From positions 248,001-312,000 of the forward strand of contig UCCA01000018.1 in the NCBI GenBank assembly GCA_900470805.1: DNA of 64,000 nucleotides, given 5' to 3'. The position numbers and the translations under genes are program-made. The notes under the pieces were generated by a model. That model searched no databases, was not told the origin of the DNA, and was given only the letters and a program-made list of their open reading frames with translations. Shown one piece after another: positions 12,853 to 46,595 of this stretch (its first letter is position 1; every line of letters starts with the position of its first letter). Origin of the DNA: Hyphomicrobiales bacterium (GTDB taxonomy: Bacteria; Pseudomonadota; Alphaproteobacteria; Rhizobiales; Rhizobiaceae).

Positions 12853-13014
12853 ATGACACACTCCATAATAGGCAAGGTAGCAGCTGCTCTGTGCATCATG
12901 CTGGCACTGAGTTCGTGCGGCAACACGATCCGCGGCGTCGGCAAGGATGTTGCCGGTACCGTCGATGCCACACAGAACGCCGGTAACCGCGTCGGCAATG
13001 CGGCTGCGAAGTAG
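12853..13014 (+). CDS. entericidin A/B family lipoprotein
   Basis: A 53-residue small lipoprotein. The N-terminus MTHSIIGKVAAALCIMLALS runs into a lipobox-like LSSC with lipidation expected at Cys22, followed by GNTIRGVGKDVAGTVDATQN, the entericidin signature. Entericidins are cell-envelope lipoproteins; in enterobacteria EcnA and EcnB form an antidote/toxin pair under stationary-phase control, but single copies in rhizobia have no proven role. A hairpin terminator lies about 100 bases downstream. It follows the DUF2934 gene and may share its promoter. Confidence 0.85.
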   Translation: MTHSIIGKVAAALCIMLALSSCGNTIRGVGKDVAGTVDATQNAGNRVGNAAAK

Positions 13015-13115
13015 TCCATCGGACCGCAAAGTTTCCGCGAGCTTCAAACCGAGCCGATCCGGCATCGGTCATGGGCATTCTAATGTTTACGAAGACGAGC
13101 ATCGTATCTAGATTG

Positions 13116-13138
13116 GGGCGCCGTGGGGCGCCCTTTTC
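13116..13138 (+). terminator. Rho-independent terminator after the entericidin gene
   Basis: GGGCGCC and GGCGCCC pair around a GTGG loop, followed by TTTT. It lies about 100 bases past the entericidin stop and ends just before the palindrome at 13145. Confidence 0.65.
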
Positions 13139-13142
13139 CATA

Positions 13143-13156
13143 TATGGTGCGCACCA
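13143..13156 (+). promoter_or_regulatory. Palindromic element TATGGTGCGCACCA upstream of the DUF6665-like gene
   Basis: Contains the 12-bp perfect palindrome TGGTGCGCACCA (13145-13156), 53 bases ahead of the ATG at 13210. The same 14 bases occur in the same orientation relative to the gene upstream of pdhA (46021-46034). A TGGT-N4-ACCA layout is typical of dimeric regulator sites; the protein is unknown. Confidence 0.5.
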
Positions 13157-13209
13157 TGGCGATCGCCGCCTCTGAGTTGGTGTAGCTCCAAATATCATGT
13201 GGGTGCTTC

Positions 13210-13533
13210 ATGAGTTTTCGTCCACCGCAATCGCTGAGGGAGCCCTTTTCGGTCGAAAGCGGCTTAAATGTCCTCGAATACGAATTGAGGGCAGAGCGCG
13301 CGAATTCACTCGGTCGCAGCGGCCTGAAAGCCGAAGCGGCACTTGCCGATCTCAAGGCCTGGAACGAGCAGCGGCATGGCCGCGAGCAGCGCGAGGCCCT
13401 CTTGAAGAAGGCGGCCGCTGCGGTGTGGGATCTCTTCGTTCAGCGCGAGATCTGCGGCCTGCGCAACAGCCGCGACGTTATCCAACGCTACGCCATACCG
13501 GACGAGGTCCTGGTGCGGCTAGGTTCAAGCTAG
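13210..13533 (+). CDS. hypothetical protein, DUF6665-like (107 aa)
   Basis: 107-residue soluble, helix-rich protein. It has the pattern I associate with DUF6665: SGLNVLEYELRAERANSLGR near the N-terminus, a charged middle helix, then VWDLFVQREICGLRNSRDV and a C-terminal YAIPDEVLVRLG. The family is recalled from memory, so the assignment is tentative. Function unknown. The start ATG 13210 has only a weak Shine-Dalgarno. It lies downstream of a palindrome shared with the pdhA leader and ends 18 bases from the convergent diguanylate cyclase gene. Confidence 0.72.
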   Translation: MSFRPPQSLREPFSVESGLNVLEYELRAERANSLGRSGLKAEAALADLKAWNEQRHGREQREALLKKAAAAVWDLFVQREICGLRNSRDVIQRYAIPDEVLVRLGSS

Positions 13534-13551
13534 CGGCATTGGCGGTTGCAC

Positions 13552-15357
13552 TCAGGCGGTTCCGCGCTTCTTTTCGTCGGCGAGGAGCGCAGATGCCAGC
13601 ACTGTCATGTTTCGACCATGCGTCTTGGCGTCGAGCAAGGCGGCGTCGGCGCGGATGAGAAGCGTGGTCGCCGCCCCCTTGTCGAAGGAGGATGCCACGC
13701 CGATCGAGACCGAAACGGCGCCGAGGATGCGGCCGCGGTGCGATAGCGGCGTGCTGCGGATATTCTCCCGCACCCGCTCGGCAAGCGCCAGACCTTCGGC
13801 ATCGTCAAGGTTCGGCATCAGCGCGGTGAACTCCTCGCCGCCGAATCGATAGGCCCGGCCGGAATCGCCGATCGTGTCGCTGATGATCTGGGCGACATAT
13901 CGCATCACTTCATCGCCGGCATCATGGCCGAACTCGTCATTGAACCGCTTGAAGTGATCGATATCAATCATCATGCAGGCCAAAGGCCGGGATGCGCTGT
14001 CACGGACGTGGCTGTTGAGGTCCTCGTCGAGCGAACGTCTATTGTAGAGACCGGTTAGGGCATCGCGGATCGAGAGGTTCGTCAGCTTGTCGCGGAGCTG
14101 CAGATTGGCGGCGGCGAGACCGATGTTCTCGGCGATCAGTTCCAGATAGAGGCGCGATGCCTCCGCCACCATATGCCCCTCTGGACGTTCCTCGAAATAG
14201 AGCAGGCCGATGGCATCGCCCTGCGCCGTGAGCGGCACGCACAGGCCGGCGATATCGGCGTGGTCGAGATGCTGGCAGCTGATGTCGCCGTGCTCGTGGG
14301 AGCTGACATGCGGACGGCCGCGTCGCAGCCCCCAGCAGGCGGTGGCTGGAAATACCGGCTCGGAGCGTTGCGGGTCGAGCCACGACGATCTCCTCGACAA
14401 CGTGGAGCGGCTCTCGTTCATGATGTAGAGGTTGCCGGCGAGTTCAGGAAATATCTGCGGCGCGAAGAGCGCCACGACTTCGGCCAGTTCCTGCTGTGCC
14501 TGGCAGGCCTGGAGCCGGTGCATCATCTGCAGGATCAGGTCCTTGGTCTGCTGGTCGCGGCGGCGCTCGGCGTCGAGCCGGTCGCGCTCCAACCCATTCG
14601 CCCGGAAGATATGGATCGCCTCGTTCATTTCGCCGATCTCGTCGCGCCGCGTGTCGAGGGGCACATCGACAGCGTAGTCCTGCTTCGCCAGACGGCTGAC
14701 GATGCCGGTCATGCGGATCAGCGGCATCGCCACCCGACGCTTGAGGACGAAATAGAGGACACCGAGGAAGAGTATGGCGGTCAGCGACAACAACGTCTTG
14801 GCAACGAAGCCCCACCAATCGCTTCTGATCTGGGCATCCTGCATAGCGGCTTGGGTGCGGGCATTGGTCAACTCGCGAAACCGAGTGACGGCACCGAGCA
14901 GGGCCGTCTGAACGCGGTCGTGCTCGGGGCCGAATAGCGTCTCGCGCGCCCCAGCCTGATCGCCGTTGCGGTAAGCAGCCACAGCGGCAGCCTCGATCCG
15001 ATCCAGCACGTCGGCGTTGGTCTCGACCTCGTCGAGCGCCTCGACTTCGACCGGTGTCGCGCCGAGTTGCCTGACGCCCTTGATCGCGCCTTCGCGCAAC
15101 CTCTCCTCGCTTTCCTTCCCCTGAAAGGCTTCGAGATGCCTGACATCGCCGCGCATCACGTAAAGGCGGGCCTCGTCGGTGCGCTCTTCCGAACCAAGCG
15201 CCAGATCGTCGGCAAGCTCGCTCAGCGTCAGGTGTTCCTCGACGGCGGTCCGCTCACGCGTCGCACTGGAGGCAGAAAGGATGAAAGCCGTGCCCGACAG
15301 CACCGTCAGAACGACGGTCACTCCGTAGGCCCAGTTGGTGATAACGCTTATCCTCAT
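13552..15357 (-). CDS. membrane diguanylate cyclase (HAMP-GAF-GGDEF)
   Basis: 601-residue sensor enzyme predicted to make cyclic di-GMP from two GTP. Two transmembrane helices (about 7-29 and 184-206) bracket a 150-residue helical periplasmic sensor. A HAMP domain follows (207-260), then a coiled segment, a GAF-like domain (about 285-415) and a GGDEF domain (about 430-590). The active-site loop is GGEEF at 506-510 and metal-binding Asp is in MIDIDHFKRFND, so it should be active. The inhibitory I-site RxxD is missing: the residues before GGEEF read GDSGRAYRF. The ATG at 15357 gives the full first helix. It is divergent from ccdA. Confidence 0.92.
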   Translation of the reverse strand: MRISVITNWAYGVTVVLTVLSGTAFILSASSATRERTAVEEHLTLSELADDLALGSEERTDEARLYVMRGDVRHLEAFQGKESEERLREGAIKGVRQLGATPVEVEALDEVETNADVLDRIEAAAVAAYRNGDQAGARETLFGPEHDRVQTALLGAVTRFRELTNARTQAAMQDAQIRSDWWGFVAKTLLSLTAILFLGVLYFVLKRRVAMPLIRMTGIVSRLAKQDYAVDVPLDTRRDEIGEMNEAIHIFRANGLERDRLDAERRRDQQTKDLILQMMHRLQACQAQQELAEVVALFAPQIFPELAGNLYIMNESRSTLSRRSSWLDPQRSEPVFPATACWGLRRGRPHVSSHEHGDISCQHLDHADIAGLCVPLTAQGDAIGLLYFEERPEGHMVAEASRLYLELIAENIGLAAANLQLRDKLTNLSIRDALTGLYNRRSLDEDLNSHVRDSASRPLACMMIDIDHFKRFNDEFGHDAGDEVMRYVAQIISDTIGDSGRAYRFGGEEFTALMPNLDDAEGLALAERVRENIRSTPLSHRGRILGAVSVSIGVASSFDKGAATTLLIRADAALLDAKTHGRNMTVLASALLADEKKRGTA

Positions 15358-42162: not shown

Positions 42163-43512
42163 TCAGACGAGCATGCCCATCGGATTTTCGATGTAGCCCT
42201 TGAAGGCGTTCAGCAGTTCCGCTCCGAGCGCGCCATCGACGCAGCGATGATCGGTCGACAGCGTGACGCTCATCACGGTGGCGATGACCATTTCGCCCTT
42301 CCTGACGATGACACGCTGCTCGCCTGCGCCGACCGCGAGGATCGTTGCATGCGGCGGGTTGATGACGGCTGCGAAGTTCTTCACGCCCATCATGCCCATG
42401 TTCGAGACCGACGTCGTGCCGCCCTGGAACTCTTCCGGCTTCAGCTTGCGATCCTTGGCGCGCTTGCCGAGGTCGCGCATCTCGTTGGAGATCGCCGACA
42501 GGGTCTTTTCCTCGGCCTTGCGGATGATCGGGGTGATCAGGCCGCCGGGGATCGAGACGGCGACGCCGACATCGGCGTGCTTGTGCTTGACCATGTTGGC
42601 TTCGGTCCAGGAGACGTTGGCATCCGGCACATCGCGAAGCGCCAGCGCCATGGCCTTGATGACCATGTCGTTGACCGACAGCTTGTAGGCCGGCGCGCTG
42701 TCCTTGCGGGGCGCGGCGTCGTTGAGCTGGGCGCGCAGCGCCAGCAGCGCGTCTAGTTCGCAATCGACGGTGACGTAGAAGTGCGGCACGGTCTGCTTGG
42801 ATTCGACGAGGCGCTTGGCGATGATCTTGCGCATGCCGTCATGCGGCACGAGCTCGTAGGAGCCCGGCTCGAACAGCTTGAGAACGCTGTCGTCGAAGGC
42901 GCCCTTTGGTGCCGCGGCAGGCGCCGATGCGACGGCCTGAGGTGCTGCAGCGGGAGCTGCCTTGGCGCCACCACCCGATACGGCGGCCTCGACGTCACTC
43001 TTGACGACGCGGCCATGCGGGCCGGAACCGGCGATAGCAGACAGGTCGATACCGGCTTCCTTTGCCAGACGCCGCGCCAGCGGCGAGGAGAAGGTGCGGT
43101 TGCCCGAGGCAGCGGCAGGTGCGGCAGCCGGAGCCGGTGCAGCAGTAGCTGGTGCCGCGGCAGGCGCCGGAGCGGCTTCGGCCTTCGCTTCAGCCTTCGG
43201 TGCTTCCGCGGCAGCGGCCTTCGGAGCCGGAGCAGCGCTCGCACCGCTGGCAGCGGCAGCGACATCTTCGCCATCGACAGCCAGAACGGCGATCAGCGCG
43301 TTGACCTTGACGCCTTCGGTGCCGGCGGGAACGACGAGCTTGGCGACGACGCCTTCGTCGACTGCTTCGACCTCCATCGTCGCCTTGTCGGTTTCGATCT
43401 CGGCGATCACATCGCCAGACTTAACCGTATCGCCTTCCTTGACCAGCCACTTGGCGAGGTTGCCCTCTTCCATGGTTGGAGACAGGGCAGGCATCGTGAT
43501 GTTGATAGGCAT
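42163..43512 (-). CDS. pdhC: pyruvate dehydrogenase E2 (dihydrolipoamide acetyltransferase)
   Basis: 449-residue core of the pyruvate dehydrogenase complex. One lipoyl domain (1-80, lipoyl Lys43 in [11 protein letters not shown]) is followed by an Ala/Pro-rich linker, the E3-binding domain ([20 protein letters not shown], about 140-175), a second linker and the catalytic acetyltransferase domain (about 220-449). The active-site motif is [12 protein letters not shown] near the C-terminus. It lies 18 bases downstream of pdhB. Confidence 0.96.
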
Positions 43513-43530: not shown

Positions 43531-44922
<1,392 letters not shown>

Positions 44923-44940: not shown

Positions 44941-45987
44941 TTACAGCAGAATGTCGGTGTAGAGCTCGGATGCATCCGGCTCCGGTGCGGCCTGGGCGAA
45001 GTCGGCCGAGTCTGCGACGATGTCGCGGACGTCCTTGTCGACTGCCTTCAGGTCGTCCTCGCTGGCCCAGCCCCTTTCAATGAGGCGCGCCTTGACCTGC
45101 TCGATCGGATCCTGCTCGGAGCGCATCTTCTGCACTTCTTCCTTGGAGCGATACTTCGCCGGGTCGGACATGGAGTGGCCGCGATAGCGATAGGTCAGCA
45201 TTTCCAGGATGATCGGACCCTTGCCGGAGCGGCAATGCTCGAGCGCCTCGTCGGCGGCCGCCTTGACGGCGCGAACATCCATGCCGTCCACCTGGACGCC
45301 GGGGATGCCGAAGCCGGAGCCGCGCAGCGAGTAGTTCGACTGGGCGGTGGCGCGGGCCGTGGAGGTGCCCATGGCGTAGCGGTTGTTCTCGATGATGTAG
45401 ATGATCGGGAGCTTCCACAGAGCAGCCATGTTGAAGCTCTCGTAGACCTGACCCTGGTTGGCGGCGCCGTCGCCGAAATAGGCGATCGAGACGCTGTCAT
45501 TGCCGCGGTAGCGGTTGGCGAAGGCGAGACCAGTGCCGAGCGACACCTGGGCGCCGACGATGCCGTGGCCGCCGTAGAAATGCTTCTCCTTAGAGAACAT
45601 GTGCATCGAGCCGCCCTTGCCGCGGGAATAGCCATCGATGCGGCCGGTCAGCTCGGCCATGACGCCACGGGCGCTCATGCCGGTGGCCAGCATGTGACCG
45701 TGGTCGCGATAAGCGGTGATGACCTGGTCACCTTCCTTCTGCGCCATCTGCATGCCGACGACGACAGCTTCCTGGCCGATATAGAGGTGACAGAAACCGC
45801 CGATGAATCCCATGCCGTACAACTGGCCGGCCTTCTCTTCGAAGCGGCGGATCAGAAGCATCTCCCGATAGGCCTTCAGCTCTTCATCGCGATCGAAATC
45901 GGCGACGGGGCCGCCGTTGGATGCCTTGTTTGCCGGTTTCGCGCTGGTCTTGCGGCTGGAAACGGTCGCGTTTTTTCGCGGCGCCAT
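44941..45987 (-). CDS. pdhA: pyruvate dehydrogenase E1 component subunit alpha
   Basis: 348-residue thiamine diphosphate-binding subunit that decarboxylates pyruvate. The TPP motif runs from GDGAANQGQVYESFNMA to ENN; the phosphorylation-loop-like YRYRGHSMSDPAKYR is conserved. The N-terminal 25 residues are basic and rich in Ser/Lys (APRKNATVSSRKTSAKPANK). GGGAGG stands seven bases upstream of the ATG. It is the first gene of the pdh operon, downstream of a palindrome-rich leader (45988-46133). Confidence 0.96.
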   Translation of the reverse strand: MAPRKNATVSSRKTSAKPANKASNGGPVADFDRDEELKAYREMLLIRRFEEKAGQLYGMGFIGGFCHLYIGQEAVVVGMQMAQKEGDQVITAYRDHGHMLATGMSARGVMAELTGRIDGYSRGKGGSMHMFSKEKHFYGGHGIVGAQVSLGTGLAFANRYRGNDSVSIAYFGDGAANQGQVYESFNMAALWKLPIIYIIENNRYAMGTSTARATAQSNYSLRGSGFGIPGVQVDGMDVRAVKAAADEALEHCRSGKGPIILEMLTYRYRGHSMSDPAKYRSKEEVQKMRSEQDPIEQVKARLIERGWASEDDLKAVDKDVRDIVADSADFAQAAPEPDASELYTDILL

Positions 45988-45995
45988 TCAACCCT

Positions 45996-46037
45996 CCCTA
46001 TGGGTTTGTCGGTTCTTAGGTGGTGCGCACCATAGGG
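45996..46037. promoter_or_regulatory. pdhA leader inverted repeat and shared palindrome
   Basis: CCCTATGG (45996-46003) and CCATAGGG (46030-46037) form an eight-base inverted repeat. Within it, TGGTGCGCACCA (46021-46032) is a perfect 12-bp palindrome. Read toward pdhA the sequence is TATGGTGCGCACCA, identical to 13143-13156. It lies about 34 bases ahead of the pdhA ATG. Confidence 0.6.
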
Positions 46038-46081
46038 AAGAATATTGGACACAGCAATGCCATAAATGCATGGCTCATATT

Positions 46082-46137
46082 CTGGAATAAGTACTTGATA
46101 AACAACAATTTATTCCAGTTAACCTGAAATCGGTTAA
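46082..46137. repeat. Two adjacent inverted repeats between ftsB and pdhA
   Basis: CTGGAATAA (46082-46090) and TTATTCCAG (46110-46118) form nine-base arms; directly beside them TTAACC (46119-46124) and GGTTAA (46132-46137) form six-base arms that include the ftsB stop. They may end the ftsB transcript or bind regulators of pdhA. Confidence 0.5.
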
Positions 46138-46475
46138 TTTGAATAATGATTGAAAATGACAATCTCGTCGGCGCGAGAGAAGTTCAATTGCAGACGCGCC
46201 TTCTCGTCCAGCATGTCCTTGTCCATCGAGCCGTCACTGAGCAGCGCCACCTGGTTTTCCAGATGCTCGCGCTTGTTTTTCAACACGGCCAGCTCCCGTT
46301 CGCGTGCGATGCGCTGACGCTCGAACACCTCGGTGGCACGCAGGCCATAGTCGCCGTGGATGCAATGGTAGCCGAAATAGGAGAGAAACGCGACCGCCAT
46401 CGCCGGAATGACGAAACGGCCTATCTTTTTCTTCTTATGATGCTTGGTCCACATACACGCATTCTCGAAACGCAT
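46134..46475 (-). CDS. ftsB: septum formation initiator family protein (FtsB/DivIC-like)
   Basis: About 113-residue bitopic membrane protein of the divisome. A short basic cytoplasmic N-terminus (KHHKKKKIG) is followed by one helix (FVIPAMAVAFLSYFGYH) and a coiled coil (RQRIARERELAVLKNKREHL) with a C-terminal tail. ATG 46475 has AAGGG at good spacing; ATG 46454 (MWTKHHKKKK) is an alternative closer to other rhizobial annotations as I recall them. It lies between eno and pdhA, a conserved rhizobial arrangement. Confidence 0.87.
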   Translation of the reverse strand: MRFENACMWTKHHKKKKIGRFVIPAMAVAFLSYFGYHCIHGDYGLRATEVFERQRIARERELAVLKNKREHLENQVALLSDGSMDKDMLDEKARLQLNFSRADEIVIFNHYSN

Positions 46476-46540
46476 TACCCTTGCTTGTGAGACTACCGAG
46501 CAGAGATTAACCGTCCGTTGACTATGAACACCCGGCAACA

Positions 46541-46571
46541 AAAAACCCGCGCCAGAGCCTGGCGCGGGTTC
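46541..46571 (-). terminator. Rho-independent terminator of eno
   Basis: On the minus strand ACCCGCGCCAG and CTGGCGCGGGT pair perfectly over 11 bases around GCT, then run into TTTTT. It begins about 25 bases after the eno stop. Confidence 0.92.
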
Positions 46572-46595
46572 CAAATGCTTGAAATCGGGAGGATA

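Follow-up and report, generated by a model that had tools for sequence, protein, structure and literature searches.

A coincidental palindrome and a conserved box that is a plausible LysR/LsrB-type target at the pdhA promoter of Rhizobiaceae

Operators of the GntR/FadR type, for example that of E. coli PdhR, have a consensus spacer of three bases. The operators described for LsrB/VtlR are those of NfeR1 and AbcR1 in S. meliloti, and of abcR1, atu1667 and vrsA in A. tumefaciens (PMC10746234, PMC8844928, PMC7486931). According to PMC10746234, S. meliloti LsrB binds the NfeR1 promoter at TGCA-N6-GCAT, a T-N11-A box, and point changes in this box abolish binding; the published effect of LsrB at NfeR1 is activation. 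The lsrB gene is described as lying beside trxB and abcR, and VtlR as the primary regulator of DUF1127 proteins (PMC12595884). A published search of the A. tumefaciens genome with the 15-bp VtlR consensus is reported to have given one new site, which is not pdhA. A word search for pdh found nothing in the main texts of three LsrB/VtlR papers, and no literature link between LsrB and pyruvate dehydrogenase or pdhA was found, the enzyme occurring in the accessible text of PMC10746234 and PMC8844928 in a reference title only.

The locus analyzed here lies in a window (the whole 64-kb stretch of DNA examined) of a 6.49-Mb assembly, whose nearest named records by pdhA are mostly titled Rhizobium. 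Its pdhA gene is preceded by a conserved 24-bp box, AGCCATGC-N7-GCATTGCTG (Table 1), which resembles the LsrB/VtlR operators in its T-N11-A dyad with an exact TGCA-N6-GCAT, and the Rhizobium ar14 promoters in the framework AGCNWTGC-N7-GCATTGCTG; the genome context also resembles the known lsrB locus, with an lsrB-like gene that has reductase and ar15 neighbours. The differences concern both target and placement. The pdhA target is a metabolic operon, whereas the known LsrB/VtlR targets are a small RNA or a DUF1127 gene. The pdhA dyad is centred near -42, over the -35, whereas the ar14 boxes are placed around -60 relative to the Rfam 5' end and are followed by the core promoter; likewise, the NfeR1 site stands upstream of the -35, unlike the pdhA site, which overlaps the predicted -35 and departs from the placement of activated targets. 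Finally, the second repeat that follows the ar14 box (GCATTGC-TGCATTGC) is missing at pdhA. Our main reading, to which we assign a probability of roughly 0.8, is that a 12-bp palindrome found at pdhA and before a DUF6665 gene represents two coincidences without relation to each other, and that the neighbouring box and the conserved promoter constitute a genuine cis-element and a plausible target of a LysR/LsrB-type regulator.

Table 1. Genes and predicted promoter features in the window (window positions)
Feature	Position	Strand	Remarks
Conserved 24-bp box AGCCATGC-N7-GCATTGCTG	46052..46075	-	predicted LsrB/VtlR-type operator; overlaps -35
Dyad ATGC-N7-GCAT in the box (TGCA-N6-GCAT, LysR T-N11-A)	46057..46071	-	centre 46064, ~-42 from predicted start
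Predicted -35, TTGCTG	46052..46057	-	TTGC in 63/63, TTGCTG in 52/63 distinct promoters
Conserved spacer stretch TTCTTCCC ahead of -10	46035..46042	-	alignment columns 33-40
Predicted -10, TATGGT	46029..46034	-	TATNNT in 61/63 distinct promoters; 17 bp from TTGCTG
Palindrome TGGTGCGCACCA, pdhA copy	46021..46032	.	last four bases of predicted -10 and bases around predicted start
Palindrome, second copy	13145..13156	.	53 bases ahead of the DUF6665 ATG; coincidental
Presumed pdhA ribosome-binding sequence, GGGAGGG	45992..45998	-	
pdhA, pyruvate dehydrogenase E1 alpha	44941..45987	-	TIGR03182, 511.7 bits
pdhB, E1 beta	43531..44922	-	NF008854, 873.8 bits
E2, dihydrolipoamide acetyltransferase	42163..43512	-	TIGR01349, 588.3 bits
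DivIC-type gene, upstream of pdhA	46134..46574	-	PF04977; bounds the intergenic region 45988-46133
DUF6665 gene	13210..13533	+	PF20370, E 5.3e-18

The region upstream of pdhA displays the elements expected of a sigma-70 promoter (a TTG-type -35, a spacing of 17 ± 1 bp and a TANNNT -10). When 67 pdhA upstream sequences (30 from relatives and 37 hand-picked out of 80 named loci for being of Rhizobiaceae type and having a plausible start codon) were aligned on the box, 65 could be placed without gaps over 72 columns, yielding 63 distinct promoters, and the box site was missing in the other two (L109 and L110). Between box and start codon the distance ranges from 53 to 110, while the spacing between TATNNT and TTGC is constant; this combination points to a -10/-35 pair, and hence to the left half of the palindrome as the -10. 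TATGGT is therefore very probably the pdhA -10, and the suggestion made from the sequence alone, that TTGCTG stands 17 bases ahead of TATGGT and that the palindrome may overlap a -10, is well supported by the alignment. Transcription is predicted to start near position 46022, within the palindrome, which would leave a leader of about 35 bases. The conservation of TTCTTCCC is unusual for a spacer, and a second regulator contact at this stretch is possible but weakly supported.

We propose that the left half of the palindrome is the TATGGT -10 of a conserved sigma-70-type promoter (TTGCTG-17-TATGGT), and that its right half would be drifting sequence at the predicted start, completing the symmetry by chance in a few strains. 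All six pairs are present in only 3 of the 63 distinct Rhizobiaceae-type pdhA promoters and four pairs are kept in 25, while inner pair 4 is formed in 4 of the rows and inner pair 5 in 9. The 14-base extension of the palindrome occurs at pdhA in three of 37 Rhizobium genomes (G000, G015 and G022), and the commonest reading at this place in Rhizobium pdhA leaders is TATGGTaCGCgCCA (30 of the 37 inspected as sequence, the other seven by pattern only). The palindrome resembles the E. coli PdhR operator in its TGGT...ACCA halves before a pdh gene, but has a spacer of four bases versus three, and its right half is unconserved here. Complementary stretches are visible in the pdhA leader, and the palindrome region might act in RNA: in transcripts that read through, the nearby CCCTATGG could pair with the CCATAGGG located at the ribosome-binding site; yet L038-L043 have CACAGGG as the second strand and do not keep the pairing, and the first pairing strand would lie outside a transcript that begins at the predicted start, so that we hold this explanation to be extremely improbable.

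Both copies of the palindrome in the window are exact, as is the extension to 14 bases (TATGGTGCGCACCA) on the own strand of each gene, pdhA and the DUF6665 gene (G000:C25:261143-261156 (+) and 294021-294034 (-), corresponding to window positions 13143-13156 and 46034-46021). From this repetition the sequence-only reading had proposed a regulator common to the two genes. Two of the four copies in the genome are indeed intergenic; they share 14 identical bases and precede start codons by 33 and 53 bases. The window also has a mild surplus of near matches, an observation that speaks against chance: ten sites with at most two mismatches were counted versus 4.3 expected, a number reached in one of 100 shuffles. 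The expectation of 0.004 copies, offered as a sign of non-chance, applies to a single 12-mer named in advance, and the fair measure is the recurrence of any perfect palindrome. The window contains 31 perfect 12-bp palindromes with two recurring kinds, GCCGCCGGCGGC three times and TGGTGCGCACCA twice, whereas Markov simulations of the window (order 1-4, 60 each) gave means of 31-37 palindromes and 0.7-1.3 repeated kinds per window, 50-72% of the runs having one repeated kind or more. Altogether, 1483 distinct 12-mers are present two or more times in the window. Genome-wide, four copies of TGGTGCGCACCA were observed versus 1.7 expected under an order-5 model of the window and 0.6 under an order-1 model. 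Across 61 genomes 121 copies were found, 71 of these in 37 Rhizobium genomes, compared with four for a control string, the palindrome read backwards, which occurs once in this genome; this contrast likewise speaks against chance. The rarity of this control is attributed to codon usage (GTG CGC ACC) and to the scarcity of the control string, whose modelled frequency is 0.2-0.4 per genome. The recurrence of the palindrome is no more than chance.

The genomic setting of the copies also tells against a shared regulator. A motif search of the genome placed the other two of the four copies within ORFs of 708 and 595 aa, which by eye we take to encode a penicillin-binding protein and a ChvG-type kinase. 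In relatives, one copy per genome was sampled from 30 out of 51 genomes that have a match, and all 30 copies fall within ORFs of at least 280 aa; for 25 of these ORFs Pfam gave a match at E up to 1e-10. This test for covering ORFs lacks full specificity, since a long ORF also spans the pdhA leader copy (L002). The sequence-only reading had itself named copies lying mostly inside genes as evidence against its proposal, and such is the distribution found. A comparison of 30 DUF6665 upstreams, each 400 bases long, showed the palindrome in the window's own sequence and not in the remaining 29. DUF6665 matches were detected in 38 of the 61 genomes. At the window's own DUF6665 gene, homology with three close relatives (L046, L047 and L048) ends at about 13014 and restarts at about 13196-13217, and the palindrome copy sits in the intervening stretch (~13014 to 13195), which cannot be aligned in them. 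With the repeat at chance level, conserved at neither gene and its one conserved half assignable to the -10, a regulator binding the palindrome at both genes, perhaps in this species only, is very improbable. The palindrome should be struck from lists of regulatory motifs, being on its own not a real feature. Just ahead of the DUF6665-side copy, a GC-rich inverted repeat with T residues behind it was noticed by eye at window 13108-13138, and is probably the terminator of an upstream gene. A longer ORF (13197-13658) overlaps the DUF6665 gene in another frame; a Pfam search with it gave nothing at E up to 0.001.

In contrast to the palindrome, the box was retained across the pdhA promoters compared. 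The sequence upstream of the pdhA core promoter reads GAATNNGAGCCATGCAWTTATGGCATTGCTG, and the dyad within it, TGCA-TTTATG-GCAT at 46070-46057, ends on the first base of the -35. Among the 63 distinct pdhA promoters, 54 have TGCA-N6-GCAT and 59 have T-N11-A. For the dyad ATGC-N7-GCAT, pdhA upstreams were divided by hand into 38 of Rhizobiaceae type, 31 of which contain it, and 42 others, Brucella and Mesorhizobium records among them, 11 of which contain it (shuffles giving about 0.1 per group); a dyad with N8 spacing is present in nine of these 42. The Mesorhizobium upstreams L146, L150 and L156 carry several overlapping ATGC/GCAT dyads with both N7 and N8 spacing, an arrangement more elaborate than the Rhizobium box. 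Two other explanations of the dyad were tried and rejected: RNA pairing, as no covariation was seen and the dyad is invariant except for two cells in A1 (built from 37 of the 41 distinct elements, without three of Hoeflea type and a fourth of another kind), and, by eye, a leader peptide beginning at the ATG in the dyad, the distance of which to pdhA varies in a frame-breaking manner (mostly 62-69, but 53-59 or 108-110 in other rows).

When applied to 25 Rhizobium genomes, the sequence-only model R1 of the box, derived like A1 from pdhA sequences, gave a single strong copy (39-42 bits) in 24, always at the pdhA promoter, and the best other match among those listed for 41 genomes reached 17 bits. 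The exception, G003, is an assembly with 82% completeness in which the best pdhA match is merely 68% identical. No wider regulon was seen for the 31-bp element under strict filters that may lose weak sites, each genome having one strong copy. Since this single strong copy lies at pdhA, the box in its full pdhA form is, on the sequences compared, a local element rather than a regulon motif. Such a distribution is that of a dedicated site, and the core promoter overlaps the box; accordingly, the box could be the operator of some other regulator, or a strong bipartite promoter element in need of no regulator, a substantial possibility to which we give somewhat less than even odds. Against it stand the ar14 promoters, which carry the same framework, and the related site that precedes a DUF1127 gene. 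The looser pattern ATGCN7GCATTGC, that is, the pdhA dyad followed by TTGC, has nine places in the genome, two of them at promoters (pdhA and ar14) and each of the other seven under a covering ORF of at least 120 aa. The ar14 place is also overlapped by an ORF, of 151 aa, which was taken as spurious because an Rfam match follows.

It was this search that led to the promoter of the ar14 gene, a member of what we assume to be the family of NfeR1. The pattern AGCNWTGC-N7-GCATTGCTG, with small departures allowed, is situated at -71/-70 of the Rfam 5' end in 19 of 30 ar14 loci (18 distinct boxes), the other 11 loci lying outside the pattern used; without the left flank a 20th locus, taken to be L253, was obtained. 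A matrix made from the 18 distinct ar14 boxes, with no pdhA sequence, ranked the pdhA box first in the 64-kb window with a score of 22.9, compared with 25.6-36.0 for the ar14 boxes themselves, 16.3 for the next separate site in the window and 16.0 for the best of 2200 shuffles; the boxes had been cut with a pdhA-shaped pattern, so the frame was not blind, and 18 of the 19 start at the same place. With this matrix 77 of 110 pdhA upstreams scored above 99% of shuffles. The ar14-only Infernal model R2 likewise placed pdhA best in the window when run with filters off (11.3 bits, E 0.041, or about 4 when scaled genome-wide). With filters on it gave no match in the window, and genome-wide at E up to 10 it returned three matches from which pdhA was absent (the first look scored 150 of 5755 candidates). 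The likeness of the pdhA and ar14 boxes is thus significant window-wide and not genome-wide. Over the next 20 columns the pdhA and ar14 consensus agrees partly (T--TC-CTAT, at equal distance), but T.TTC.CTAT is complete in only 4 of 20 ar14 rows, which leaves a second contact common to both a weakly supported possibility.

The second of the three genomic R2 matches (E 0.195) fell at the promoter of a 47-aa DUF1127 gene, and the published regulation of DUF1127 proteins by VtlR supports the identification of the ar14 box as an LsrB box. In the DUF1127 locus (L274:1501-1782) the ar14-type box reads AGCTATGCGCCTTGCGCATTG and lies about 120-140 bases upstream of the gene. Six ar14-family matches were recorded in the genome (G000:C21:55366, C57:117617, C32:80250, C27:26008, C42:86567 and C49:120834). 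With the ar14 matrix, four of the five other ar14 copies of this genome score at most 9.7 and one, a partial box, 15.3, while the four ar15 upstreams score at most 9.7; these scans covered 105-115 bases before the Rfam 5' end, which in several copies is seemingly not the transcript start.

The regulation of rhizobial pdh by PhaR has already been reported, and a PhaR/AniA site was therefore weighed as the identity of the box. PhaR is described as activating pdh in S. meliloti (PMC12542648) and as weakly shifting the B. diazoefficiens pdhA promoter in a gel (PMC6201568), so that in two rhizobia pdh is part of the PhaR regulon; this genome has a phaR gene, and the box contains two GC-N3-GC cores like those of the PhaR/AniA consensus, given as TGCRNYGCASMA and WNWD2NYGCRNYGCRNH2WNW (PMC6201568, PMC12542648). 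The outer letters, however, do not fit. A matrix of 34 published S. meliloti PhaR sites gave the pdhA promoter a score of 3.1 (p 0.13), at the palindrome and not at the box, compared with 9-24 for known sites, and on this ground a PhaR box at pdhA was rejected; moreover, pdhA does not appear in the S. meliloti PhaR site table of PMC12542648. We consider the PhaR/AniA explanation distinctly unlikely. Elsewhere, the pdhA upstreams L113, L115, L122, L147, L149, L151 and L158 contain PhaR-matrix sites of 11.6-17.7, versus 3.1 in the window, and titles among these records include Agrobacterium vitis, two Rhizobium sp., Bosea and Stappia. PckR was also set aside as a candidate, pdhA being absent from the main text of PMC4052901.

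For the reading favoured here, a LysR/LsrB-type operator, a candidate protein is encoded in the genome. The lsrB-like gene (L272:2319-3230) specifies 303 aa with LysR domains, the best PDB chain being 9hh1 (E 9.5e-192), named only as a LysR regulator, and it adjoins a thioredoxin-reductase-like gene, read as trxB, and two ar15 matches, the same neighbourhood as in the published lsrB setting. Viral contigs scanned with the LsrB-like protein yielded no match. The VtlR consensus GCAT-N3-TG-N3-T, which is that of B. abortus and A. tumefaciens, is present at the ar14-aligned place in 17 of 63 pdhA rows, this window not among them, and at a shifted place in 19 of 63, this window included, compared with 20 of 30 ar14 loci.

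According to the model proposed, LsrB, or another LysR-type regulator of the same specificity, would bind the 24-bp box; that LsrB itself binds the predicted pdhA operator is a tentative assignment, just short of an even chance in our estimation. Because the box overlaps the -35, a bound protein would be slightly likelier to block than to recruit polymerase, and repression is marginally favoured over a class-II-like activation, should a protein bind. The same LysR regulator would then stand beside the promoter at ar14, with activation, and atop the -35 at pdhA, with repression; protein binding and its sign at pdhA are what we infer from this arrangement. The box is a plausible new target, judged from its sequence, for a known kind of regulator. 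An LsrB-like operator at pdhA, if real, would link the entry of carbon into the TCA cycle with redox sensing and with small RNAs. In its most extended form, the proposal would have redox-sensing LsrB directly control pyruvate dehydrogenase throughout Rhizobiaceae via an NfeR1-type operator, the core promoter being shifted by ~18 bp and activation turned into repression, with pyruvate entry to the TCA cycle tied to the thiol redox state; taken in its entirety this is speculative and rather unlikely.

Among the named records collected for pdhA, L162 (JAHREI010000002.1) is titled Bacillus subtilis SK6B4 and encodes a PdhA 80% identical to the Rhizobium protein; this record is probably mislabelled or contaminated.
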